DNA of 64,000 nucleotides from Coprococcus eutactus (GTDB taxonomy: Bacteria > Bacillota > Clostridia > Lachnospirales > Lachnospiraceae), in contig NZ_CP102278.1 of the NCBI RefSeq assembly GCF_025149915.1, forward strand, positions 1,038,001 to 1,102,000, written 5' to 3'. The notes beneath the pieces are model-generated. The model was not told the origin of the DNA, searched no databases, and worked only from the letters and a program-made list of their open reading frames with translations. The stretch's first letter is position 1; each line of letters begins with the position of its first letter. Below, piece by piece: positions 3,744 through 15,804 of this stretch. The position numbers and the translations under genes are program-made.

Positions 3744-5381
3744 GTGGCGGCAAATAACAAAAAGAGACGAATCTTAAATATAAGCCTGGCGGTTATAGGA
3801 ATAATCGTCGTGGGACTTTTATTTAACAAGATACTTGAACAGTGGGCAGGCTTTCGGGCGATAATAGATAAAATCTCAGGCGCATTTGCACCAATTATAG
3901 TGGGTGCGGTCATAGCGTTTCTTATGAATCCGGTACTTGTATTTTTTGACAGGCTTTTTCATACGATATTTCAGGACAAAGTTATCACGGATAAGAAGAA
4001 ACTGTTTAAGGTATCAAGAACACTGTCGGTTATACTCACAACTATAGTATTTCTGGGAATCATAACTGGTGTAGTATGGCTTGTGGTGCCACAGCTCTAT
4101 GACAGTATCAAGCAGCTGGTTGGCAATATGGATAATTATTATTCCAACCTGCAGAATATGGTGGAGAATATCAATGAGAAATTCCAAAAACTCAATATCC
4201 CTGAGGATGAGCTGAACAAGTATATGAATACAGCATATCTGAAGCTGCAGGACATGTTGAACACAAAGATCATGCCTAATGTAGACAAGATCGTGGTGAA
4301 TATAGGAAGCGGGGTATTTTCCGGATTGAAGTTCCTGTATAATTTCCTTATAGGTATAGTGGCTTCTATATATGTGATGGCAAATAAGGAATATCTAGCA
4401 TCAAGGGGAAAGAAGATCATATATGCTGTGTTCAAGGTAAAGAATGCGAATAATATCCTCGATGGTCTTTCAGAGATGTACAGGATTTTTGGACAGTTTA
4501 TCAATGGCAAAATACTTGATTCACTTATAATTGGAATGATAATGTTTATAGTTTCTACAATACTCAATCTGCCATATGCAGTGCTGATAAGTGTTATTGT
4601 GGGAGTGACAAATGTTATACCATTCTTTGGGCCGATCATAGGAGCTATACCTTGTTTCTTTATCGTACTTATAGCCGATCCGATCAAGAGTCTGGTGCTG
4701 CTTCTTGTTATACTCATATTGCAGCAGTTTGATGGGAATATTCTTGGACCGAAGATCATTGGTGATACCACAGGACTTTCAAGTTTCTGGGTACTTACCG
4801 CGGTTATTGTGGGTGGAGGCCTGTTTGGATTCTTTGGAATGCTCCTGGGCGTTCCTGTATTTGCGTGCTGTTATATGTATATTAACAGGACATGTACTGC
4901 AAAGCTGCAGGATAAGAACCTGGCATTCAAGACCTCTGAGTATGAGAAGATAAAGAGGATTGATGAGGAGACGGGTGAACCGATATACAGGACAGAAGAG
5001 GAAGAGGACATAAGATTCAAGAAAAAGACTCCAGAACAGAAACAGGAAGAGCGTGAGAATAAGAGGAAGCTCAAGCAGAAACAGCATATGCTTCAGTATC
5101 CATCAGATCTACCTGATGATGAATACTCAAAGAAAGAGCCTGCACAGAATATAGATGATCAGGATGGTGATGAAGATGAGTCCGATGATGATCCGATCAG
5201 TATCCTTGATAAATTCATGCATGTTATGAAGAGCGTTGCCAGCAGGGCGGATGCTGAAAAGCTAGCAAAAAATATTGTGGAAAATGATGAAAGTACCGGG
5301 CGTGATCCAGATGATACTGGAAAGCAAACTGCTGGAGAAGATCAGACTGAGGATACCGGAGCCGGAGATCCACACAAATAA
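3744..5381 (+). CDS. AI-2E family transporter with long charged C-terminal tail
   Basis: A polytopic membrane protein of the AI-2E exporter family (PF01594, TqsA/YdiK/YtvI group), which exports small molecules or acts as an ion antiporter. The preferred start is GTG 3744, six bases after GGGAGAG; ATG 3729 and a TTG at 3651 are possible in frame but lack a ribosome site. Hydrophobic segments run through residues about 12-390 with the family's PFFGPIIGAIP and QQFDGNILGPKIIG motifs. After the last segment there is an unusual ~150-residue cytoplasmic tail, first Lys/Glu-rich and then Asp/Glu-rich, not found in most family members. Substrate cannot be predicted. Confidence 0.9.
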   Translation: MAANNKKRRILNISLAVIGIIVVGLLFNKILEQWAGFRAIIDKISGAFAPIIVGAVIAFLMNPVLVFFDRLFHTIFQDKVITDKKKLFKVSRTLSVILTTIVFLGIITGVVWLVVPQLYDSIKQLVGNMDNYYSNLQNMVENINEKFQKLNIPEDELNKYMNTAYLKLQDMLNTKIMPNVDKIVVNIGSGVFSGLKFLYNFLIGIVASIYVMANKEYLASRGKKIIYAVFKVKNANNILDGLSEMYRIFGQFINGKILDSLIIGMIMFIVSTILNLPYAVLISVIVGVTNVIPFFGPIIGAIPCFFIVLIADPIKSLVLLLVILILQQFDGNILGPKIIGDTTGLSSFWVLTAVIVGGGLFGFFGMLLGVPVFACCYMYINRTCTAKLQDKNLAFKTSEYEKIKRIDEETGEPIYRTEEEEDIRFKKKTPEQKQEERENKRKLKQKQHMLQYPSDLPDDEYSKKEPAQNIDDQDGDEDESDDDPISILDKFMHVMKSVASRADAEKLAKNIVENDESTGRDPDDTGKQTAGEDQTEDTGAGDPHK

Positions 5382-5433
5382 AAAAGAATATCAATACGGG
5401 GAATAAAGTCTGAGTCTCTGTATTACATAAGAT

Positions 5434-5474
5434 AAAAGAACAGATTTGCTTTTACACAAATCTGTTCTTTTTTT
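5434..5474. terminator. Shared intrinsic terminator, overlaps the DUF4250 stop
   Basis: AAAAGAACAGATTTG pairs with CAAATCTGTTCTTTT, followed by a run of eight T on the plus strand and TTTTAT on the minus strand. It ends the AI-2E exporter transcript. It also overlaps the last codons and stop of the convergent DUF4250 gene (5452). Confidence 0.88.
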
Positions 5475-5637
5475 CATCGTATGAATAATCTATGGTTGCA
5501 AGCTTTTTCTTTACACCATCCGCATCAACGCATAGAGAACTGCACAATTCGTCAAGGCTTGGATAATCGTCTCTGAGCTTTGTGTTGATGAAACTGAGAA
5601 GGACCATGGGATCCTTTGGGAGTGATGAATATTCCAT
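5452..5637 (-). CDS. DUF4250 domain-containing small protein
   Basis: A 61-residue protein matching DUF4250, a small family common in Clostridia whose function is unknown. The hallmark LPKDPMVLLSFINTKLRD followed by Y-P-S-L-D-E-L is present near the N-terminus. The start is set at ATG 5637, preceded by AAGGAGGTATTTTACT; a longer frame to 5670 has no ribosome site. It is a single gene, convergent with the AI-2E exporter, and its last five codons lie within the shared terminator hairpin. Confidence 0.88.
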   Translation of the reverse strand: MEYSSLPKDPMVLLSFINTKLRDDYPSLDELCSSLCVDADGVKKKLATIDYSYDEKKNRFV

Positions 5638-5833
5638 AGTAAAATACCTCCTTGTGGTATATTGCGTCATAATATATGAAGTGATTATAAATATTATGGT
5701 TGAATTAGCAGCATAAAATTGGTATATATATAGTTTGTGGAAATTGTTCAGTGGCGCATATGCGTGACTTGGTCATGCATGCAACACTTGAATTTTACAA
5801 TATAGATATAGAAATGGCAATAAGGAGTTAAAT

Positions 5834-7486
5834 ATGAGTACAAACACTGGTGCGGAAAAGAAAGGCAAGCTATCAGGAAAAGGAAGTAATCTGGCACTTC
5901 AGGCGGGGATTCTGGCTGGCGCTGGAATCGTGTCAAGGATCATAGGTCTGCTGTACAGATCCCCTCTGTATCAGATACTTGGAGATGAAGGAAATGGGTA
6001 TTATGGATCAGCATATGCCATATATGCAATGGTCATCATGATAGCGACATATAGCATCCCAACTGCGGTATCGAAACTCGTCGCAGGCAAGATAGCAATG
6101 GGACAGTACAAAAGTGCCAGACGTATTTATTATTGTACATTTATATATGTAGTGATAGCAGGAGCTGTGGCGGCACTCATCACATACTTTGGTGCTGAGT
6201 GGTTTGTCAGTGATCAGCCAAATGCTGTGCTCAGTCTTAAGATACTTGCACCTACCATATTTATATCAGGATTCCTAGCCATATTCAGAGGATATCTGCA
6301 GGCATACAATACCATGGTGCCTACATCTATATCCCAGATCATAGAGCAGCTTGTGAATGCCGCGGTAAGTATAATTGCAGCGTACATGCTTGCAAGACCA
6401 TTTGCTGCGGGAACCACAGAACATGCAAAGTACGGATCTGCGGGAAGTGCCATGGGTACAGGTGCCGGAGTCCTTGGGGGATTGATATTTATACTGTTCG
6501 CATATGCGAAGAGAAGAAAAGGCATCATGGAGTCTGTGAAAATGGATACAAGCCCGGACACAGAATCCTATGGAAAGCTGTTTAGAATCATCATAGCAAC
6601 AGTCACTCCAATCGTGGTGGCTGCGGTGGTGTACAATGTATTGACCCCTATAGATATGAAGGTATTTTATGTTGTCATGAAGATGAAGGGAATGGATTCG
6701 CTGGAAATGGCGAAATTGTACGGTATTTATTCTGGACAGTACACGGTCCTCACGAACCTTCCGCTTGCCATAGCAGCTTCAGTAGGAATCGCATACATTC
6801 CTGGAATATCAGGGGCGTATGCACAAAATGATATGAAAAAGACGAACAGACTTCTCAATCAGGCACTCAGTATGTCTATGCTTGTCACGATACCATGTGC
6901 CGTTGGAATGGGAGTTCTGGCAAAACCAATCATACAGCTCCTGTTTTCGGGAGCAGATCCGATGGCGGCTAAGTGTATGTATCTTGGATTTATATCCATC
7001 GTGTTCTTTGCACAGTCCACTGTGACAAACAGTGTGCTTCAGGCGATGGGCAAGGTGATGGCGCCGGTTATCAATGCCACACTTGCACTGGTGATACATG
7101 TGGTTGTCCTTGTGATCATGTTGTATTGTACTGACTGGGCACTGTATGCTCTGGTTCTAGGTTCCATAGTAAATTCACTGCTCATATGTATATTTAACCA
7201 GCGTTCACTTACAAAGTACAAGACCGGCAGGATGGACAACAGGAGAATATATGTTGCACCGACTATAGCATCTATCTTCATGGGCGTTGTCACGATCATT
7301 GTATATGAGGGCTGCCGAAAGCTTATCGGCAACTGGGTCATCTCAATGTTTGTTGCTGTATTTGTGGCGATAATATTCTATGCGGTGGCTATTCTCAAAG
7401 TCGGAGGCTACACTGAAGAGGAGCTCCTCAACATGCCAAAGGGAGGCCTCATCGTAAAGTTTGCGAAGAAATTCAGACTATTGTAA
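5834..7486 (+). CDS. SpoVB/MurJ-type polysaccharide or lipid II flippase (MOP superfamily)
   Basis: A 550-residue protein with about 14 membrane segments, belonging to the SpoVB/YtgP/MurJ branch of the MOP exporters, which flip lipid-linked wall precursors across the membrane. The N-terminal motif AGIVSRIIGLLYRSPLYQILGD is typical of SpoVB-like proteins. The start ATG 5834 follows AAGGAGTTAAAT. Whether it serves vegetative wall growth (MurJ/Amj role) or spore cortex (SpoVB) cannot be decided. Sporulation genes elsewhere in the window allow the latter. The stop codon is only 4 nt before the REP array at 7491. Confidence 0.88.
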   Translation: MSTNTGAEKKGKLSGKGSNLALQAGILAGAGIVSRIIGLLYRSPLYQILGDEGNGYYGSAYAIYAMVIMIATYSIPTAVSKLVAGKIAMGQYKSARRIYYCTFIYVVIAGAVAALITYFGAEWFVSDQPNAVLSLKILAPTIFISGFLAIFRGYLQAYNTMVPTSISQIIEQLVNAAVSIIAAYMLARPFAAGTTEHAKYGSAGSAMGTGAGVLGGLIFILFAYAKRRKGIMESVKMDTSPDTESYGKLFRIIIATVTPIVVAAVVYNVLTPIDMKVFYVVMKMKGMDSLEMAKLYGIYSGQYTVLTNLPLAIAASVGIAYIPGISGAYAQNDMKKTNRLLNQALSMSMLVTIPCAVGMGVLAKPIIQLLFSGADPMAAKCMYLGFISIVFFAQSTVTNSVLQAMGKVMAPVINATLALVIHVVVLVIMLYCTDWALYALVLGSIVNSLLICIFNQRSLTKYKTGRMDNRRIYVAPTIASIFMGVVTIIVYEGCRKLIGNWVISMFVAVFVAIIFYAVAILKVGGYTEEELLNMPKGGLIVKFAKKFRLL

Positions 7487-7490
7487 GTAT

Positions 7491-7623
7491 CAGGGACGTT
7501 CCTTTTGTACCGACGAGTGTCCCCTTGTACCGACGAGTGTCCCCTTGTACCGACGAGTGTTCCTTTGTACCGACGAGTGTCCCCTTGTACTGACGGGTGT
7601 CCCTTGTACCGATGAGTGTCCTC
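7491..7623. repeat. REP copy R1 followed by tandem half-unit array
   Basis: A full palindromic unit (7491-7524) beginning CAGGGACGTTCCTTTTGTAC is followed by further ~20-bp copies of only its right half, TTGTACCGACGAGTGTCCCC. In total there are six half-unit copies, starting at 7505, 7525, 7545, 7565, 7585 and 7604, with a few substitutions and one 19-bp copy. The array begins 4 nt after the flippase stop and ends 3 nt before the RAYT stop. It matches the dispersed units R2-R6 between 8781 and 14694. Confidence 0.9.
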
Positions 7624-7626
7624 CTG

Positions 7627-8418
7627 TCAAGGCTGAGGTTTGCTGTTGTGAGGCATGCCCTCTGTTAAGGTTCGCTGGATGATTCCTTTAGACGTGCCCG
7701 TGAGACGGTTCAGCTGTCTGATAGAAATACCTTGTTCGTGCAAAAGAGCAAGGTGTTTTTTCTTTTCTAAAAGGGGCAGTGATTGAAAATCGGTAATAGT
7801 ATGGCATCCGGTTTCTTTGATAATTAGCTCTTTTGCAACATCATCTGGGAGCCTTTTGGTAAGTTTATGAATGTCTAGGCAATCGGCTTCTTCAGTTTCT
7901 CGATGAAATGTTGTAAATGCCTTCGAACCACCAATTAGATTGTTTATCAGTCCGATATCTACCAATGCCGAATTCCCTGACAGGTAACTGTAGATACTGC
8001 TCCAGGGGTAAGACTCGCCGGGAAAAGCTTCTATGCCAGTTTTGTACGGATTTTGGTGTATGTAGCGGACTACAGTGAGAAGGTATCGTTCATCGTTAAC
8101 AGGTTCACTGTAATATCTGCCTTGCTGTAGGAAACCGGTTCTATCATATTTCATATTAAACCAAACCGCATAACGCGTGTTAATGCGGCGAAATACAGTC
8201 GCCAGTGGGGTGTTAGAGGTATGTATGAGAAGATGAACGTGATTAGACATCAGACAATATGCATAGATTTCAAATTGGCATTCTTTTTTGTAATAGCTCA
8301 GGATATCCAGGTATTTGTCATAATCATTCTTTTCTTCAAACATTTGCTGCCGGTCTGCTCCGCGAATTACAACGTGGTAAATGTTTGATTCAGATATAGC
8401 TCTTGGTTTTCTTGGCAT
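7627..8418 (-). CDS. REP-associated tyrosine transposase (RAYT, IS200/IS605-like Y1 family)
   Basis: A 263-residue single-strand DNA transposase of the Y1/HUH superfamily. The N-terminal fold starts with HVVIRGADRQQMF, and the metal-binding HUH motif is H60-V-H62 in MSNHVHLLIH. The catalytic-tyrosine helix appears as Y119 in VVRYIHQNPYKTG, a typical RAYT pattern. A C-terminal helix-turn-helix (about 220-255, ISIRQLNRLTGTSKG) follows. ATG 8418 is preceded by GGAGGAGGTCC. RAYT proteins act on REP palindromes rather than mobilising classic IS ends. Here such palindromes flank the gene in direct orientation (R1, R2) and lie at four more places nearby. All catalytic residues look intact, so the gene may be active. 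Confidence 0.93.
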   Translation of the reverse strand: MPRKPRAISESNIYHVVIRGADRQQMFEEKNDYDKYLDILSYYKKECQFEIYAYCLMSNHVHLLIHTSNTPLATVFRRINTRYAVWFNMKYDRTGFLQQGRYYSEPVNDERYLLTVVRYIHQNPYKTGIEAFPGESYPWSSIYSYLSGNSALVDIGLINNLIGGSKAFTTFHRETEEADCLDIHKLTKRLPDDVAKELIIKETGCHTITDFQSLPLLEKKKHLALLHEQGISIRQLNRLTGTSKGIIQRTLTEGMPHNSKPQP

Positions 8419-8742
8419 AAAAGGACCTCCTCCAAAGTGATAAAATGTGATGTGTACAGTGTGGAAAAAATAAATGTTAAAATGTGATTCATGAAAACAC
8501 GGTCATCAAAAATATAGCCATCAAAAACCAACCACGATAAGACAAAAAACAGTTATAAAGAGGTAATTGTTGAAAAATTGAAATGACTATGGGTTTCGTA
8601 TAACATGATTCATATAATATCATTCATATGAAAATGGATTTGATTAGATACGATAGCTTAACGATCGTTTAAGAAAATCAAAACATATAATATTATACTA
8701 TATTTTGAAAAGAAGTAAAGCGCTTTGTAGAAGCATATGATA

Positions 8743-8816
8743 GAATGTATCAGGGACGTTCCTTTTGTATCGGAATGTATCAGGGACGTTCCTTTTGTAT
8801 CGGAGAGTGTCCCCTG
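8743..8816. repeat. REP copy R2 with duplicated left half
   Basis: A 30-bp segment starting GAATGTATCAGGGACGTTCC occurs twice in tandem (8743-8772 and 8773-8802). The second copy continues into the full palindrome ending GAGAGTGTCCCCTG. Thus in R2 the left half is duplicated, the opposite of R1, where the right half is amplified. Its orientation is the same as R1, so R1 and R2 flank the RAYT gene as direct repeats. Confidence 0.88.
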
Positions 8817-9017
8817 TCATGCGAAAGGTGAAAACTCGATATGGGGCAATAAAAGGAGTAAAGTTGACATAATTGTTTGAGAGAACCATACGTGCAATGT
8901 CTGCGACAGAAGATGATAAAAAAGTATGATGCAGAAGATGGCAGATGTCAGTTGCAAAAATATTTAGACGAAAATTATTTAGACTTGATTAGGAATATAT
9001 ATCTAATGTGGGACAGA

Positions 9018-9049
9018 GGGACGCTCCTCGTTACAGAAGGAACGTCCCC
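9018..9049. repeat. REP copy R3, abutting the chromate transporter start
   Basis: Palindromic unit GGGACGCTCC...GGAACGTCCCC in the opposite orientation to R1/R2. It ends 12 nt before ATG 9062. Confidence 0.88.
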
Positions 9050-9061
9050 TAGGGATTAATT

Positions 9062-9703
9062 ATGGAAAAAGAAAAAAGAAAGGGCAGGACCCTTTTAAAG
9101 ATATTAATAACAACATTATATCTGAGCACCTTTACCTTCGGGGGTGGATACGTCATCGTGTCTCTTATGAAGAAAAAGTTTGTGGATGAAACTCACTGGA
9201 TAGAGCAGGATGAGATGCTCGATCTTGTAGCTATAGCACAGTCGTCGCCTGGGCCTATCGCAGTAAATGGATCGATAGCGGTGGGATATAAATTGTGTGG
9301 TATAGCAGGGGCATTGGTGGCGATAGTCGGAACGATCATTCCGCCATTTGTTATCATATCCATCATATCTTACTGTTACAGCGCGTTCAGGAGCAATTGG
9401 ATGATAAGCCAGATGCTGGAGGGGATGCAGGCAGGTGTTGCTGCGGTTATCGCATCCGTCACATATGATATGGGAGCAGACATAGTAAAGCAGAGGGATG
9501 ATCTGGGGGTATTGGTCATGATAGCTGCATTTGTTGCATCCTACATATTGGAGATAAATGTCGTGTTCATAGTAATTGTCTGTGGACTTGTCGGTGTTTG
9601 TAGAGGACAGCTTGAGAAAAGAAGAGGGCGTGGGCATAAAAAGACAGAGGATACCTCTGACGAAAATCCTGAAAAACGCTCAGGCAAAGGGGGGATGGAA
9701 TAA
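9062..9703 (+). CDS. Chromate transporter, N-terminal-type half (short-chain CHR family)
   Basis: A 213-residue half-size ChrA-family protein with about five to six membrane segments. It contains FGGGYVIVSLMKKKFV and the signature SSPGPIAVNGSIAVGYKLCG. Short-chain CHR proteins are encoded as neighbouring pairs that work together; the partner follows with overlapping stop and start (TAATG at 9701-9705). The natural substrate in gut Firmicutes is uncertain (chromate/sulfate antiport is established only for other members). The last ~25 residues are polar. The ribosome site is weak (AGGGA), and REP R3 sits just upstream. Confidence 0.9.
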   Translation: MEKEKRKGRTLLKILITTLYLSTFTFGGGYVIVSLMKKKFVDETHWIEQDEMLDLVAIAQSSPGPIAVNGSIAVGYKLCGIAGALVAIVGTIIPPFVIISIISYCYSAFRSNWMISQMLEGMQAGVAAVIASVTYDMGADIVKQRDDLGVLVMIAAFVASYILEINVVFIVIVCGLVGVCRGQLEKRRGRGHKKTEDTSDENPEKRSGKGGME

Positions 9704-10275
9704 TGATCTATTTGCAGTTGTTCCTAAGTTTCTTCCAGATAGGACTTTTCAGTTTTGGCGGAGGTTATGCCGCCATGCCGCTTATACAGGGACAGATAGT
9801 GAAAATACATGGGTGGATGACCATGTCAGAGTTCACGGATTTGATCACTATATCCCAGATGACTCCGGGACCTATAGCTGTCAATTCGGCGACATTTGTG
9901 GGGCTACGGGTGGCCGGATATGCCGGTGCGGCGATTGCCACGCTCGGATGTGTACTCCCTTCATGTATTATTGTAACGGTCATAGTCAGGCTGTATCTGA
10001 AATATCGCAAGCAGGATGTTCTTCAGGAGTTTCTCGGCGGTATAAGACCGGCTGTTGTGGCTATGATCGCGTCAGCGGGAGTTTCGATATTCGTGACGGC
10101 GGTCTGGACTGGTATCGATATGATAAGTCTCGCAGGAACTAAGTGGAATCTTGTGGTGATATTTGCAGTGAGTGTTGTTCTGCTCAGAAAATTCAAACTG
10201 AATCCGGTGTGGGTGATGCTGCTTTCCGGTGCGATGCAGGTGCTGTGTGAAGTGGGGACGTTTCTTTTGTCATGA
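9703..10275 (+). CDS. Chromate transporter, second half (short-chain CHR family)
   Basis: A 190-residue partner of the preceding half-transporter, with the family motif FGGGYAAMPLIQGQIV and TPGPIAVNSATFVGLRVAG. Its ATG overlaps the upstream stop by one base, implying translational coupling. The two halves probably assemble with opposite membrane topology, as known for other paired CHR proteins. The final codons (from about residue 184) and the stop at 10273-10275 are formed by a REP-like palindrome (10254-10286), so the C-terminus VGTFLLS is repeat-encoded. Confidence 0.9.
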   Translation: MIYLQLFLSFFQIGLFSFGGGYAAMPLIQGQIVKIHGWMTMSEFTDLITISQMTPGPIAVNSATFVGLRVAGYAGAAIATLGCVLPSCIIVTVIVRLYLKYRKQDVLQEFLGGIRPAVVAMIASAGVSIFVTAVWTGIDMISLAGTKWNLVVIFAVSVVLLRKFKLNPVWVMLLSGAMQVLCEVGTFLLS

Positions 10276-10286
10276 AAAACGTCCCC
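10254..10286. repeat. REP-like palindrome R4 spanning a stop codon
   Basis: GGGGACGTTT pairs perfectly with AAACGTCCCC around a 13-nt loop that contains the stop codon of the upstream transporter. It is more symmetrical than the other units, and its loop (CTTTTGTCATGAA) retains CTTTTGT. It is followed at once by AAAGGAGGT and, 13 nt after its end, by ATG 10300. Confidence 0.8.
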
Positions 10287-10299
10287 AAAGGAGGTCTAG

Positions 10300-10734
10300 A
10301 TGAAGAAGAAAATATTACTGTGTCTGATAGCACAGCTCATATGCTGGAGCATTATGACGCTGTCTGATTACATAGAAGAAACATATAATGATAGTTATAA
10401 TCTGGTCGTTGTATTTGCTGTACCCCTGATATGCGTAATTCTGTATATTATATTCAGAAAATGGATATACGATAATCAGATTGTGCGGCTGAAAGATGTC
10501 GCCATAATCTGTGCGGCGTGGATGATCTGTGGATTGATACTGGGATTTCTGATTGGTGCTCTGGTTATGAATGAAATGTGGATAGTGCCGCAGGCTACAG
10601 GAGGATGGGAGCATCTGCTGAATGGGATCGAATACATGATGTTCGCCATAACACTTGCAGGAATACCATTTGTGGCGGTGGTTCTGATCGAGTCGGTTGT
10701 GGGGATAGTAAAGGTAGTTAGAAAAAGGGCTTGA
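10300..10734 (+). CDS. Small polytopic membrane protein, unknown
   Basis: A 144-residue protein with four hydrophobic segments (about 4-21, 32-49, 65-89 and 112-136). I do not recognise a family. ATG 10300 follows AAAGGAGGTCTAG. It lies 24 nt downstream of the chromate transporter halves and shares their transcript unless the intervening palindrome acts as a terminator. A strong terminator follows at 10783, so it is the last gene of the unit. Confidence 0.7.
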   Translation: MKKKILLCLIAQLICWSIMTLSDYIEETYNDSYNLVVVFAVPLICVILYIIFRKWIYDNQIVRLKDVAIICAAWMICGLILGFLIGALVMNEMWIVPQATGGWEHLLNGIEYMMFAITLAGIPFVAVVLIESVVGIVKVVRKRA

Positions 10735-10782
10735 CGAGAGCTTTGGTAAAGTTGCCCGGCGCAAGTAATAAGTTTTATAATT

Positions 10783-10822
10783 AAATGCTTCATCTGTGAG
10801 AGAATCAGGTGGAGCATTTTTT
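10783..10822 (+). terminator. Intrinsic terminator
   Basis: AAATGCTTCATCTG pairs with CAGGTGGAGCATTT (one G-T wobble and one mismatch) and is followed by TTTTTT. It closes the chromate transporter unit. Confidence 0.8.
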
Positions 10823-10878
10823 ATGCATGGTGGCTAATGGCTTACGCAGGCATATGAATAGTTTATATATCCTATCCC

Positions 10879-10907
10879 TTGACAAAAAGAGAAAATATGA
10901 ATATACT
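10879..10907 (+). promoter_or_regulatory. Sigma-A promoter of the MarR-MATE operon
   Basis: TTGACA at 10879-10884 and TATACT at 10902-10907 with a 17-nt spacer is near consensus. The expected start of transcription is near 10914. Confidence 0.85.
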
Positions 10908-10915
10908 TACCGACG

Positions 10916-10936
10916 ATAATTACCTAAAGTAATTAT
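10916..10936. promoter_or_regulatory. Probable MarR operator
   Basis: A perfect dyad ATAATTAC-CTAAA-GTAATTAT lies just after the -10 box, overlapping the likely transcription start and 49 nt before the MarR start codon. Size and position fit autorepression by the MarR protein encoded next. Confidence 0.7.
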
Positions 10937-10985
10937 ACGAAATAACAATAAAATAATATTTGATAAATTTACAGGAAGGAGAACC

Positions 10986-11435
10986 ATGACAAAGGAAAAG
11001 ATAAAACAGGTTATGGATGCCTGCTACCAGGCTAAAAGGGTTAGGGATATGATGCCCAAGCTGCCAAATGAAGTGACGCCTACCCACATACATTATCTTG
11101 ATGTGATAACTAAGCTGGAGCTTGACGGCGCGGAGGTGAAGGTCAGTGATATAAGTGATGAACTGGGGCTTCCAAGACCAGGAGTGACAAAGACGATAAA
11201 GGATATGGAACGCCTCGGATTTGTGGAAAAGAAGGCTTCAGAGGCGGATGGACGTATTGTTTATATAAGGAGCACTCAGGCTGGCAGAGATCTGGTTGGC
11301 AAATATGTTGACGAGTATTTTACAGGACTGGGGGAGTCTCTTGTCGATATCACAGATGAAGATGCAGATATTATGATAGCGACCATTGAAAAAATTTATG
11401 ATGTTATGAGCAAAAGGAGTCAAGACATAAGATGA
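10986..11435 (+). CDS. MarR family transcriptional regulator
   Basis: A 149-residue winged-helix regulator. The DNA-binding part (about 45-105) includes VSDISDELGLPRPGVTKTIKDMERLGFVEK and a wing ending VYIRSTQAGRD. ATG 10986 follows GGAAGGAGAACC. It overlaps the MATE exporter gene by 4 nt (ATGA), the usual arrangement for a local, ligand-sensing repressor of a drug exporter. A dyad operator over its own promoter (10916-10936) supports autoregulation. The ligand is unknown. Confidence 0.92.
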   Translation: MTKEKIKQVMDACYQAKRVRDMMPKLPNEVTPTHIHYLDVITKLELDGAEVKVSDISDELGLPRPGVTKTIKDMERLGFVEKKASEADGRIVYIRSTQAGRDLVGKYVDEYFTGLGESLVDITDEDADIMIATIEKIYDVMSKRSQDIR

Positions 11436-12790
11436 GTGTACAGGATAAAACAGATTTTACACAGGGAAGTATAATTAGAAAAATGCTCCCATTCATGGGA
11501 CCGATTCTTGGAGCATTGATACTTCAGGCTGCATATGGTGCGGTTGATCTGCTGGTGGTTGGAAGATTCGGTTCAACGGCGGGACTTTCAGCCGTATCAA
11601 CAGGCAGCCAGGTGCTCAATCTGGTTACATTTGTGATAACAGCACTTGCTATGGGTGTCACAGTGCTTATTGCCAGATATATAGGCGAAAAGAACATGGA
11701 TCAGATAGGAGAGCTTCTTGGAGGCGCCACGACCATATTTGCAATACTTGCGGTGGTGCTGGCAGTTGTCATGGTGACGTTTGCAAGACCCTTGTCCGTG
11801 TTGATGCAGGCACCGTCTGAGGCGGTCACTCTTACATCATCGTACGTGAGGATATGCGGAGGCGGAATATTTTTCATTATGGCTTACAATGTGCTCACCG
11901 CGATATTCAGAGGTTTTGGAGACAGCAAATCACCTCTTATATTTGTGTTTGTGGCATGTATAGTAAATGTTATCGGTGACCTTATTCTGGTTGCGGGATG
12001 TCATCTTGACGCTGCGGGTGCAGCCATAGCAACAGTGGTTGCCCAGGCGGTCAGTGTTGTCCTTGCGCTTGTGCTGCTGAAGAAGAAAAAGCTTCCATTT
12101 AAGATAGCAAGAAAAGATTTCAGATTAAACAGACAGTGCAGAAGATTGCTCTCGGTTGGACTTCCGCTTGCAATGCAGGAATTTCTCACGCAGATGTCAT
12201 TTCTAGCGCTGTGTGCATTTATCAATAGACTTGGCCTGGAGGCATCATCCGGATATGGCGTTGCCTGCAAGATAGTCAGCTTTGCCATGCTGGTACCAAG
12301 TTCGCTTATGCAGTCTATGGCTTCATTTGTATCGCAGAATGTTGGAGCTGGAAAAGAGGACAGAGCGAGAAAAGCGATGCTTACCGGTATGGGCATAGGA
12401 CTCTCTGTCGGCGTGGTGGTATTCATTGGCGTGTGGTTCTTTGGTGACAAACTGACATCAATCTTTACCACTGACGCGGCTGTTATACAGAGGGGCTTCG
12501 AGTACCTGAGGGGCTTTGCACCTGAGACTATACTTACCGCGGTGCTGTTCAGCATGATAGGATATTTCAATGGACATGAGAAGTCACTATGGGTCATGAT
12601 ACAGGGACTTATCCAGACATTGCTCGTTAGACTGCCTCTTGCCTATTACATGAGTATACAGCCGGATGCGAGCCTTACAAATATAGGACTTGCAGCGCCG
12701 ATAGCAACATGCGCAGGTATTGTGCTGAATGTCATATTCTATATGGCTATGTCAGAAAATAAGAAAAAAGCGAAAGAACAGAAAGCATAG
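11432..12790 (+). CDS. MATE family efflux transporter
   Basis: A 452-residue protein with about 12 membrane segments in two related halves, belonging to the NorM/DinF-type MATE exporters that expel cationic drugs or metabolites using Na+ or H+ gradients. The opening FTQGSIIRKMLPFMGPILG and the internal repeat LSVGLPLAMQEFL are typical. It is translationally coupled to the MarR regulator. Its length is normal and no defect is seen. Confidence 0.93.
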   Translation: MSVQDKTDFTQGSIIRKMLPFMGPILGALILQAAYGAVDLLVVGRFGSTAGLSAVSTGSQVLNLVTFVITALAMGVTVLIARYIGEKNMDQIGELLGGATTIFAILAVVLAVVMVTFARPLSVLMQAPSEAVTLTSSYVRICGGGIFFIMAYNVLTAIFRGFGDSKSPLIFVFVACIVNVIGDLILVAGCHLDAAGAAIATVVAQAVSVVLALVLLKKKKLPFKIARKDFRLNRQCRRLLSVGLPLAMQEFLTQMSFLALCAFINRLGLEASSGYGVACKIVSFAMLVPSSLMQSMASFVSQNVGAGKEDRARKAMLTGMGIGLSVGVVVFIGVWFFGDKLTSIFTTDAAVIQRGFEYLRGFAPETILTAVLFSMIGYFNGHEKSLWVMIQGLIQTLLVRLPLAYYMSIQPDASLTNIGLAAPIATCAGIVLNVIFYMAMSENKKKAKEQKA

Positions 12791-12827
12791 TTGAAAGTAT
12801 GCTATACATGGCGAGAAAGCTCAGAGT

Positions 12828-12854
12828 GGATATTTGTTGTATTGACAAATATCC
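12828..12854 (+). terminator. Hairpin, possible weak terminator
   Basis: GGATATTTGT pairs with ACAAATATCC around a 7-nt loop 38 nt after the MATE stop. There is no clear T run (TTATGC), so termination is uncertain. Confidence 0.4.
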
Positions 12855-12866
12855 TTATGCACTATA

Positions 12867-12900
12867 CAATATCGTTATATGATATCGATAAATGATATTG
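12867..12900. promoter_or_regulatory. Dyad upstream of PadR gene, candidate operator
   Basis: CAATATC at 12867-12873 and GATATTG at 12894-12900 form an inverted pair, with a nested ATATC-N7-GATAT at 12869-12885. They lie 18-50 nt before the PadR start codon. PadR proteins often bind such AT-rich dyads at their own promoter. Confidence 0.45.
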
Positions 12901-12918
12901 AGAAAGAGAAGTGATATT

Positions 12919-13236
12919 ATGCCAAAGAAAGCTATGGATATTCTGACGGAATCCATGTTTTATGTGCTTATGGCATTCTCAAAAGGCCCGATGTGTGGGA
13001 TAGATGTGGCAGATTATATAGAGGAGAGAACCGGTGGAAGGGTAAAGATCGGGCCGGCGACTCTGTACACTATACTGGGAAAGTTTGAGAAGGAAAAGTG
13101 GATAAGGGAAATTGAGGTGGAAGGCCGTAAGCGAACATACAGCATCACAGATAAGGGTATATCTGCATATGAGCAGGAAGTGGAAAGACTTAGAATGTGT
13201 GTGCGGGATGCTGAAGATGCAGCAGATGAAATGTAG
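12919..13236 (+). CDS. PadR family transcriptional regulator
   Basis: A 105-residue winged-helix regulator of the short PadR class. The motif GPMCGIDVADYIEERTGG followed by GPATLYTILGKFEKEKWI is diagnostic. The start is ATG 12919 after AGAAGTGA; the in-frame ATG at 12892 lies further from it. It precedes a DUF2812 membrane protein by 59 nt, a standard pairing in Clostridia in which the PadR protein controls its neighbour. Confidence 0.92.
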   Translation: MPKKAMDILTESMFYVLMAFSKGPMCGIDVADYIEERTGGRVKIGPATLYTILGKFEKEKWIREIEVEGRKRTYSITDKGISAYEQEVERLRMCVRDAEDAADEM

Positions 13237-13295
13237 AGATTCATTTGCAGCGGAGTGCGGACTATTCACAAAAAATTTATATGGAGGACTCAAAG

Positions 13296-14504
13296 ATGGT
13301 GGAGAAAAAAGATACAAAAAGTGTGCACCGCATCATACCATGTCCGGATTATGATGTGACCGGAGTTGAGTGCTGGCTCTCATATATGGCGGAGCGGGGG
13401 TATATCTTGCGGGATGGTGGAGTGTTCCGTGGAATAGCTGCGTTTGACAGGTGCGAACCTAAAAAGGTGAGGTATAGGTTGCAGCCGGCTCAGAAAGGAT
13501 TCGTGATATATGACAACGACGGACCAAGTGATGATGAGGTGGAGCTGAACGGCGCTTTTGGATGGAAGTACGTGGCAAAGTATGGAGTATTTAATATATA
13601 CAGAGCAGATGATATGGATGCCAGGGAGATGGACACAGACACTGAGGTCCAGGCGATGGCGATGAATTCGCTGCATAGAAGTCAGAGGTTTAACATAATA
13701 TGGATGTCCATCTGGATAATAGTATATCTTGCAATTGTCTTTACAAGTCAGCCGTTCCTATCGATGGTAAACAGAGGAAGCCTGATAAGTATTGCCCTCG
13801 TATTGTGCGTGATCATATTTATAGTGACCGGTCTGGTTAAGGCTGTGAGTCTGTACAGGCTCCGCAGAAAAATACTTGATGGGGATAGTCTGGGTTCGGG
13901 TACAAACTGGAGAAGAGGCGCCAGAATATACACAGTAAAGGCCGTTGTTGGAATAATTGCATATGTGGCAATGATAGTGTTTGGATGTATGTTTATACTG
14001 AGTGATGGCGTAGACAGAAACCAGATGCCGCTTTCCGAATATCAGGGAGAAGTTCCGTTTCAGACAATAACAGATCTGGTATCCTGCAGCGATATTCAGA
14101 AGGTAGATAACGTGGACGATGATGTGAATACGATCAGCAAATGGTCTGATATTCTGTGGCCTGAAAATTACAAGGTTTATGAGTATGGTGATATAGTTTA
14201 CACAGATGGAAATATATGTCATGGTGGATTGGTGATAACCTATCATGAGGCAAAGAATGAATGGCTGGCAAATAAGCTTTATCAGGCTTATGTGCAGAGG
14301 GCAAAGCATCAGTCTGACTATGAGAAAATTGATATGAAGATAGCTGGGCTGGATGATGTAGATGCTTACTGGGACGGATCAGAGAGCGTGGTCATGAGAA
14401 AAGGAAGGAGACTTATAGTAGCCAGTTTCTACATGAGCGGCGAGAACAGACATGAGGGAGATCTGGAGGAATGGGCTGGCTGCATTGCGGTGAGTCTGGA
14501 ATAA
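13296..14504 (+). CDS. DUF2812 domain-containing membrane protein
   Basis: A 402-residue protein whose N-terminal domain (about 12-110) matches DUF2812, including an ECWLSYMAERGYIL-like helix. Membrane segments lie at about 125-143, 150-172 and 208-232, followed by a ~170-residue outer domain. The start is ATG 13296, eight bases after GGAGG; upstream in-frame codons at 13245 and 13281 are less well placed. DUF2812 genes typically follow a PadR gene, as here. The function is not known; a role in sensing envelope stress is only a guess from context. Confidence 0.85.
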   Translation: MVEKKDTKSVHRIIPCPDYDVTGVECWLSYMAERGYILRDGGVFRGIAAFDRCEPKKVRYRLQPAQKGFVIYDNDGPSDDEVELNGAFGWKYVAKYGVFNIYRADDMDAREMDTDTEVQAMAMNSLHRSQRFNIIWMSIWIIVYLAIVFTSQPFLSMVNRGSLISIALVLCVIIFIVTGLVKAVSLYRLRRKILDGDSLGSGTNWRRGARIYTVKAVVGIIAYVAMIVFGCMFILSDGVDRNQMPLSEYQGEVPFQTITDLVSCSDIQKVDNVDDDVNTISKWSDILWPENYKVYEYGDIVYTDGNICHGGLVITYHEAKNEWLANKLYQAYVQRAKHQSDYEKIDMKIAGLDDVDAYWDGSESVVMRKGRRLIVASFYMSGENRHEGDLEEWAGCIAVSLE

Positions 14505-14530
14505 AGAGAAATTCTTACGCGACTAATACA

Positions 14531-14563
14531 GGGGACACTCCTCGTGACAGAAGGAACGTCCCC
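14531..14563. repeat. REP copy R5
   Basis: Unit GGGGACACTCCTCGTGACAG...GAACGTCCCC, with GGGGAC/GTCCCC and TCCT/AGGA pairing around two A-C mismatches. It starts 26 nt after the DUF2812 stop. This is the cleanest copy. Confidence 0.9.
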
Positions 14564-14580
14564 ATTAAACATTTACAATT

Positions 14581-14624
14581 TAGCCACGTTATAGTATATT
14601 AGAATTTGTATGCGTGGCTATTTT
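14581..14624 (+). terminator. Possible terminator between two REP copies
   Basis: TAGCCACG at 14581-14588 pairs with CGTGGCTA at 14613-14620 and is followed by TTTT. The loop is long (24 nt), and a second GTGGCT copy at 14625 could pair instead, so the call is weak. Confidence 0.4.
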
Positions 14625-14661
14625 GTGGCTGCACTATAATATATAGGAAGAAATAATACAG

Positions 14662-14694
14662 AGGGACACTCTTCGTTACAAAAGGAACGTCCCC
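14662..14694. repeat. REP copy R6, abutting the ychF ribosome site
   Basis: Unit AGGGACACTCTTCG...AAAAGGAACGTCCCC in the same orientation as R3 and R5. It is followed directly by AAGGAGGTATAC and ATG 14707, so it ends 12 nt before the start codon. Confidence 0.9.
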
Positions 14695-14706
14695 AAGGAG
14701 GTATAC

Positions 14707-15804
14707 ATGAAATTAGGTATCGTAGGACTCCCAAACGTGGGAAAGAGTACACTTTTCAATTCACTTACAAAGGCAGGAGCGGAATCAGCTAACTATCCGT
14801 TCTGTACAATAGATCCAAACGTAGGTATCGTTGCAGTACCGGACGAGAGACTGGACAGGCTCACAGAGATGTATAACTCTGCAAAGACAACACCTGCTGT
14901 TATAGAATTTGTAGATATCGCTGGTCTTGTAAAGGGCGCGTCAAAGGGTGAAGGACTTGGCAACCAGTTCCTTGCAAATATCAGAGAGGTTGATGCCATC
15001 GTTCACGTTGTAAGATGCTTTGAGGATACAAATGTCATCCATGTTGACGGTTCCGTAGATCCGATCAGAGATATAGAGACCATCAATCTGGAGCTGATCT
15101 TCTCAGATATAGAGGTGCTTGACAGAAGGATCGCCAAGACCATCAGAGGCGCGAGAAACGACAAGATGCTTGCGAAGGAGCTTGACTTCCAGCAGAGGAT
15201 CAAGGCTCATCTTGAGGATGGCAAGCTTGCAAAGACCATCGAGGTCACAGATGAGGACGAGCAGGCATGGATAGAGGAGTACAACCTTCTCACATGGAAG
15301 CCTGTTATATTTGCAGCAAATGTAGGTGAGGACGACATAGCAGATGACGGTGCGTCGAATGAAAACGTACAGAAGGTAAAGGCGTATGCAAAGGACTTCG
15401 ATGCAGAGGTATTTGTAGTATGTGCACAGATAGAGCAGGAACTTGCAGAGCTTGACGATGAGGAGAAGAAGATGTTCCTCGAGGATCTCGGAGTTAAAGA
15501 GTCTGGTCTTGACAAGCTTATCAAGGCAAGCTACTCACTTCTCGGTCTTATCAGTTATCTGACAGCCGGAGAGACGGAGTCAAGGGCATGGACCATCAAG
15601 AAGGGAACAAAGGCACCTGGAGCAGCCGGCAAGATCCACTCAGACTTTGAGAGAGGATTTATCAAGGCTGAGGTCGTAAGCTACAAGGATCTCATGGACT
15701 GCGGAAGTATGCTTGCAGCTAAGGAGAAGGGTCTTGTTAGACAGGAAGGCAAGGAATATGTGGTTGAGGATGGAGATGTGATTCTCTTCAAGTTTAATGT
15801 ATAG
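14707..15804 (+). CDS. ychF: Redox-regulated ATPase YchF (OBG-family)
   Basis: A 365-residue protein of the Obg/YchF family, an ATP-binding (not GTP) ribosome-associated regulator. The P-loop GLPNVGKST is at residues 6-14, followed by NYPFCTIDPNVG (switch I area) and a DIAGLVKGASKGEGLGNQFL G3 region. A C-terminal TGS domain (about 280-363) contains TAGETESRAWTIKKGTKAP. Length matches the family. ATG 14707 follows AAGGAGGTATAC, which itself abuts REP copy R6. Confidence 0.97.
   Translation: MKLGIVGLPNVGKSTLFNSLTKAGAESANYPFCTIDPNVGIVAVPDERLDRLTEMYNSAKTTPAVIEFVDIAGLVKGASKGEGLGNQFLANIREVDAIVHVVRCFEDTNVIHVDGSVDPIRDIETINLELIFSDIEVLDRRIAKTIRGARNDKMLAKELDFQQRIKAHLEDGKLAKTIEVTDEDEQAWIEEYNLLTWKPVIFAANVGEDDIADDGASNENVQKVKAYAKDFDAEVFVVCAQIEQELAELDDEEKKMFLEDLGVKESGLDKLIKASYSLLGLISYLTAGETESRAWTIKKGTKAPGAAGKIHSDFERGFIKAEVVSYKDLMDCGSMLAAKEKGLVRQEGKEYVVEDGDVILFKFNV

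Follow-up and report, generated by a model that had tools for sequence, protein, structure and literature searches.

Known REP systems and the family of the window

Families of repetitive extragenic palindromic sequences (REPs), their inverted pairs (REPINs), the REP-associated tyrosine transposases (RAYTs, also TnpA-REP) and the TIRYT elements are already known. Here we describe a family of this kind in Coprococcus eutactus. The window is the whole stretch that we analyzed, 64,000 nucleotides (nt) of contig NZ_CP102278.1 (positions 1,038,001 to 1,102,000). It contains a RAYT-like gene, several REPs and the gene ychF, and three of its REPs (R3, R4 and R6) end just before start codons. We consider it somewhat probable that each of the three marks an end of a RAYT transposable element or of one of its small non-autonomous copies, distributed by a loose target preference together with purifying selection. 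Three observations are central. The palindrome's outer end often borders on a signal of a neighboring gene, either the Shine-Dalgarno sequence (SD) of the gene that follows or the stop codon of the gene that precedes. The same junction is held by a REPIN in one sister genome and by a single REP in the other. Finally, the window's RAYT belongs to a clade that lies near ychF, and most of the examined members have a terminal REP at the SD of that gene. The SD contact and the ychF address look new. An open-access literature search of limited depth found no published report of REP or RAYT insertion at SDs or at ychF.

The published systems are described from excerpts of the cited papers. REPIN/RAYT systems share with this family the mismatched palindromes of ~31 nt, the inverted pairs, a Y1/HUH gene flanked by its own repeats, and copies that are mostly extragenic. 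They differ in other traits. Here there are only 27 copies, the ends read CGTCCC(C/T), no GTAG tag was seen in the aligned copies, and the outer ends often touch an SD or a stop codon. The REP doublets of P. fluorescens SBW25 are distributed randomly in extragenic space (PMC3116915).

The closest named kind is the TIRYT, or TIRtron (Di Nocera 2013, PMC3733652). TIRYTs belong mostly to TnpA-REP subclass 2.1 (PMC6006769). There, as here, a Y1 transposase lies between terminal inverted repeats, and the family is small, with dimers and clusters (PMC3733652). GGGGWSAS is frequent in the TIRYT repeats and holds in only some TIRYTs (PMC3733652). In GTAG REPs, the repeat end can supply a TAG stop, and REP ends can be found within 20 bp of 3' ends (PMC3733652). 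REPs between genes of the same direction are there near the upstream 3' end, and their distance to the downstream gene varies (PMC3733652). In our family, however, the downstream end is often at the SD. The main text of PMC3733652 does not contain the words Firmicutes and Clostridi-.

IS200/IS605 elements share the Y1 transposase. The window RAYT differs in scoring far under the NCBIfam IS200 model (21 versus a cut-off of 55). Single-strand transposition chemistry is expected for IS200/IS605-type Y1 transposases. TnpA-REP cleaves at CT and CA (PMC8266576), which would fit outer ends that lie here between C and T or between C and A.

The RAYT element and the positions of its repeats

The transposase gene of the window stands among REPs and a degenerate array.

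7493..7523, minus strand: left terminal REP of the RAYT element, 6 nt past the flippase stop codon
about 7504-7642: degenerate tandem array, inward of the left terminal REP
7627..8418, minus strand: open gene of a RAYT-like Y1 transposase of 263 amino acids, named from PF01797 and motifs
8783..8813, minus strand: internal REP of the RAYT element, accompanied by a half copy (8753-8772)
9018..9049, plus strand: R3, the REP that closes the RAYT element on the right; its outer end lies 12 nt ahead of the chrA ATG

The product of 7627-8418 matches PF01797 with 64.3 bits against a Pfam cut-off of 23. It presents HVH from residue 60 and YIHQNP with Tyr119, which we take to be the HUH motif and the catalytic tyrosine of the Y1 domain. 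The best NCBIfam model is NF047646 (REP-associated tyrosine transposase). The score of 64.9 bits is below its cut-off of 80, so we name the gene RAYT-like and do not file it as that equivalog. A sequence search of the PDB with the RAYT gave no match. The gene is flanked by a repeat dispersed in the genome (REPs at 7493, 8783 and 9018; 27 in the genome). The outer ends of the REPs at 7493 and 9018 face outward; we therefore delimit the RAYT element as 7493-9048, with R3 as its right end.

Genomes carry our own labels. G000 is the window's own genome (3.11 Mb, one contig), and G002 is a sister genome, 88-95% identical across the RAYT region. The G002 junction consists of the flippase gene, one REP ending just before the chrA start, and chrA. 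No RAYT was found in G002, neither at this junction nor elsewhere. R3 as a separate insertion is ruled out, as it forms the end of the RAYT element and a lone REP occupies this place in G002. The degenerate 20-nt tandem array (TTGTACCGACGAGTGTCCCC, window 7484-7642) derives from a REP arm and adjoins the RAYT 3' end. By eye, comparable arrays are present at 336764 of G000, in G156 and in G241.

A pattern search of G000 gave 26 forward and 27 reverse matches, versus 2 and 5 in the reversed control. Most places match on both strands because the unit is palindromic. It is a palindrome of ~31 nt with a mismatched stem. A covariance model trained on 25 REP copies gives 27 places in G000, 25 of them found by construction. 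REPINs are present as eight inverted pairs at 51-56 nt start to start, and one at 88 (for example, 1250877/1250928 and 1263685/1263736). The remaining REPs stand alone or in arrays. At the outer end, the sequence is ..GGAACGTCCC or close to it, then C or T; the inner foot is variable. Outer ends of the forms ..AACGTCCC and ..ACCGTCCC often adjoin gene signals.

We compared these ends with the known classes. An unpaired GTAG is missing at the 5' foot, and the inner foot has CAGG, CACG, CAGA, ACAG and similar sequences. The CGTC class does not fit either: CGTC lies in or beside the paired arm, and the RAYT is flanked by the repeat. GGGGWSAS is fitted by 13 of 25 aligned copies, as GGGGACAC. The remaining copies have AGGGACAC (6), AGGGACGC (4), GGTGACAC (1) or GGGGACGC (1) at this position. 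Large REP families with a CCGTCCC core and differing outer ends were observed in G728, G725 and G677 (161, 71 and 13 forward matches). These repeats, similar in core, were excluded from the counts.

The other REPs of the region are distributed along a block of genes that ends at ychF.

9062..9703, plus strand: chromate transporter gene 1 (chrA), Pfam PF02417
9703..10275, plus strand: chromate transporter gene 2, stop codon within R4
10255..10286, minus strand: R4, single near-symmetrical REP, 13 nt before the ATG at 10300, common to G002
10300..10734, plus strand: small membrane protein (label of the first-pass annotation), with no Pfam or NCBIfam match
14532..14562, plus strand: R5, single REP, 143 nt from the start and so not near one
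14663..14694, plus strand: R6, REP with its outer end in contact with the ychF SD
14695..14701, plus strand: SD AAGGAGG of ychF
14707..15804, plus strand: ychF (redox-regulated ATPase YchF), TIGR00092, 493.6 bits

The first-pass annotation had placed the ends of R3, R4 and R6 at 9049, 10286 and 14694, before ATGs at 9062, 10300 and 14707. These positions are correct, and the gaps are 12, 13 and 12 nt. As it had also stated, R4 and R6 pass directly into the SD (AAAGGAGG and AAGGAGG). R3 is followed by TAGGGATT, a weak SD. The open reading frame caller placed the chrA start 153 nt downstream of 9062. Counted from 9062, the Pfam domain starts at residue 13, which makes this earlier start plausible. 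R4 is inverted relative to R3 and R6, and its similarity to R3 is only 61%. Synteny breaks at R6: ychF is next here, and an inverted second flippase gene is next in G002 (G002:C45:1-303).

The distances were then counted over 107 REP outer ends in nine genomes: 28 in G000, 7 in G002, 22 in G218, 20 in G803, 13 in G156, 6 in G027, 4 in G114, 6 in G179 and 1 in G215. Not tallied were a half copy (1046753), a G156 match (C16:23630) and all REPs of G163, G263 and G303. R4 contributes both of its ends, and one G027 palindrome appears twice, once for each strand. The ends are partly non-independent, with pairs and shared loci among them. The G803 copies come from ten stretches around listed places; thus, this genome is sampled and not complete. 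Gene calls were made with a simple codon-usage script and not with a published gene finder. Flippase, MoxR-like and FeoB-associated are family-level names only. Three start distances were corrected by hand: R3 (165 to 12), G218 C1:379291 (193 to 14) and G218 C10:25242 (346 to 12). The small proteins after these two G218 ends match FeoB_associated with 33.9 and 26.0 bits (cut-off 27). Both FeoB-associated-like genes of G218 carry the REP at the SD.

In G000, 7 of 14 start-facing ends are at 11-15 nt from the start, with R3 placed by hand. In G218, which belongs to another genus, they are 10 of 12 at 10-17 nt, with the two small genes placed by hand. G002 has four such ends: two near, one at 9 nt without SD, and one far. 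Both near ends are loci common to G000, and one was hand-placed like R3. Elsewhere, start-facing ends are at 10 nt in G156 (one of two), at 22 in G027 (one end) and at 19 in G114 (one of two). Most stop-facing ends of five genomes are also close to their genes. They lie 12 nt or less from the stop in 10/13 cases in G000, 7/7 in G218, 8/9 in G803, 5/8 in G156 and 3/3 in G027. In 13 of the 40 stop-facing ends of these five genomes, the element supplies with its first G the last base of a TAG stop, and all seven in G218 are of this type.

We compared the start distances with a null in which ends fall at random in upstream gaps that are 10 nt or longer. Under this null, the chance of 10-17 nt is p=0.052 in the window and 0.0375 in the G218 stretches. 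The excess is P=2.6e-6 in G000 (7/14) and P=3.4e-13 in G218 (10/12). The shared feature is contact with the SD and not a ruler of 12-13 nt.

The sequence after the palindrome was also compared. C-type ends of G218 continue as AAAGNAG in 7 of 13 cases, every one at a start (T-type, 0/9). In G803, a different species of the same genus, they are 8 of 17, and 7 of these are away from starts (T-type, 1/3). The background of AAAGNAG in G803 is 0.0007 per position, and the fifth base differs between near-identical copies. This flank points to a target-like sequence resembling an SD in the genus of G218 and G803.

Relatives without REP tell about the age of the SD. The REPIN-free genome G805 has the same GGAGAA as G218 before the start of a MoxR-like gene (AAA domain). 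At site 2721922, REPIN-free G002 shares AGGATATACATTTG with G000. An AAGGAG-type SD precedes ychF without REP in G001, G002, G003 and G004. It means that, at the places compared, the REP came to an existing SD. At 558644, G000 has a REPIN and G002 a single REP between the same two junctions.

The RAYT clade near ychF

The nearest named RAYT that we found belongs to an uncultured Lachnospiraceae metagenome-assembled genome (L079). It has 56% identity and lies directly beside ychF. We made a tree of 37 RAYTs, with L321 omitted for length; 30 of the 61 listed RAYT places came with DNA. The window RAYT falls in a clade of seven members with support 100/99. These are L079, G218, G241, G263, the window genome, G303 and G156. 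In four members, RAYT and ychF are neighbors and a terminal REP lies at the SD of ychF, with a gap of 0-1 nt in L079, G241 and G218 and of 4 nt in G263. In the window genome, RAYT and ychF are 6.3 kb apart, with a 5.6-kb block between them and R6 at the ychF SD. The RAYT locus of G156 is cut by a contig end. None of the 30 RAYTs outside the clade, some of them cut by contig ends, has ychF within 1.5 kb; farther distances were checked only for G303.

The flippase gene directly precedes ychF in G001. Therefore, the block from chrA to R5 seems to be a later arrival between RAYT and ychF. In L329 (G303), feoA-feoB (4908-8592) splits the RAYT element from ychF, like the chrA block in the window.

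The first-pass annotation had counted three unrelated genes. Their independence was overstated: R3 terminates the RAYT element, and the RAYT clade usually has ychF as its neighbor. An earlier idea of ours, that the ychF REPs were independent hits in two genera, gave way to the RAYT-ychF linkage.

Integrative elements, too, seem to use the ychF leader as an attachment site. In L121 (G002), L129 (G004), L263 (G801) and L268 (G805), a tyrosine integrase-like gene ends just ahead of the ychF SD. The match to Pfam Phage_integrase is shown for the G004 gene alone. Between G002 and G004, 578 of the 580 bases before the ychF start are identical, ychF itself differing. In pneumococcus, an attB upstream of ychF takes insertions of prophages or integrative elements (PMC8637289). 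The address is the same as that of the integrase-like genes. However, the pneumococcal elements are tyrosine recombinase elements, with no REP relation seen (PMC8637289).

Competing explanations and significance

According to our preferred explanation, the RAYT would insert the element as single-stranded DNA. The target would be short, loosely specified, and similar to a stop codon, an SD or both (AAAGNAG in the G218/G803 genus). Copies that disrupt a gene or an SD would be removed by selection. Together, this target preference and selection would leave REPs in the seam between stop and SD. Later, recombination at REPs would have placed the REP-bounded block, from chrA to R5, between the RAYT element and ychF. 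It would leave R3 before chrA and R6 before ychF. The mRNA hairpin would be a by-product.

Several results weigh against this explanation. Only 2 of 9 start-facing ends of G803 are near starts, despite the AAAGNAG flank, and none of four in G179. Stop-facing ends within 12 nt are 0/2 in G114, 0/1 in G179, 0/1 in G215 and 1/2 in G002. Of the 107 tallied ends, 11 fall within called genes, and no neighbor was called for 2. AAAGNAG follows 1 of 15 C-type ends in G000, only R4, and 0 of 13 ends in G156. Being scarce in one genome and absent from the other, it is at most a candidate target of the window's RAYT. The clean empty-site comparisons (336764 and 2721922) show that native bases were lost besides the insertion. 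Orphan REPs were observed in G002, G027, G114, G179 and G215, where no RAYT was detected; three of these genomes are 60-75% complete. Conversely, the two RAYTs found in G803 (35 and 43% identity) have no REP arm nearby. In G303, the RAYT is 3 kb from ychF, with feoA-feoB between them and no REP at the ychF SD. The ychF cases may stem from one event, so they provide no independent evidence of targeting.

The proposals of the first-pass annotation were thus retained in part. That the transposase targets ribosome sites agrees with an SD contact above random and with the motif at 8 of 17 C-type ends of G803. It disagrees with the many ends at stops, the scarce motif in G000 and the G803 starts. 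The proposed genome-wide peak of distances is present in G000 and G218 and not in G803. The comparison with orthologous loci lacking the unit found the SD already there, but the empty sites are not clean.

Selection and geometry alone could produce a similar pattern. Insertion would be random, packing tight, and only the bases between a stop and the next SD harmless. At several sites, the genes are indeed closely paired and the REP lies 0-6 nt from the upstream stop; the few G803 ends near starts also agree with this view. Under a narrow null, with only 30 nt upstream open to insertion, the excess in G000 is P=0.053. Nevertheless, G218 keeps P=6.9e-5 under the same narrow null, and in G803 the flank motif also occurs away from starts. 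The median upstream gaps speak against tight packing as well (99 nt in the window, 123 nt in the G218 stretches). For three of the ten SD-touching REPs of G218 (C17:24422, C10:25242 and C17:15977), the distance to the closest called gene upstream is 117, 144 and 222 nt. We regard selection alone as possible, although rather doubtful.

A more specific version of targeting was also considered. The RAYT lineage would target the seam between stop and SD, with its master copy fixed at the ychF ribosome site. The terminal repeat would stand in the ychF leader of several genera, and the offspring would mark other ribosome sites. We judge this version unlikely.

The first-pass annotation had suggested that the hairpin is kept beside the SD because it tunes translation or protects the mRNA. 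The REP arm at the ychF SD recurs in five lineages, and the isolated R3 and R4 leaders fold the REP hairpin. The near-start REPs fold somewhat better than the others in G000 (median -11.7 versus -9.2 kcal/mol; 7 against 20) and in G218 (-8.8 versus -7.4; 10 against 12). A small effect of the hairpin may be compatible with these slightly stabler REPs in two of three genomes. However, the sign is opposite in G803 (-7.2 versus -9.4; 2 against 18), and the energies of both groups overlap. The stem is lost in two of five ychF copies (G241, -4.6; G263, -3.9), and the best fold of the R6 leader is without the REP hairpin. Native ychF genes in G001, G003 and G303 have no REP.

The predicted accessibility of the SD is within the range of shuffled REPs. 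The fraction of shuffles at least as high is 0.40 for R3, 0.16 for R4 and 0.10 for R6. The probability of an unpaired SD is also close to the value with the REP removed (R3, 0.048 versus 0.063; R4, 0.203 versus 0.274; R6, 0.034 versus 0.022). No two-sided pair changes were found in the REP stem, where 5 of 9 pairs are invariant and give little evidence either way. Because folding, accessibility and covariation are all weak, we rejected the hairpin as a conserved RNA element and consider the tuning of translation or of mRNA stability improbable.

AAAGNAG follows C-type ends of G218 and G803 as if it were part of the element. It is nevertheless very improbable that the element brings its own SD as a mobile ribosome-binding site: the fifth base of the motif varies between near-identical copies, the flanks at stops differ, and the SD bases are common to REP-free relatives, on which we rejected this idea.

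The family of C. eutactus bears on two questions: how RAYTs choose the sites of REPs, and why REPs persist. It also calls for caution, as distances from REP to start can mimic regulatory hairpins. The preference for the seam between stop and SD is sharp and countable, and a RAYT clade is tied to ychF in several genera. Both make target choice and domestication directly testable.

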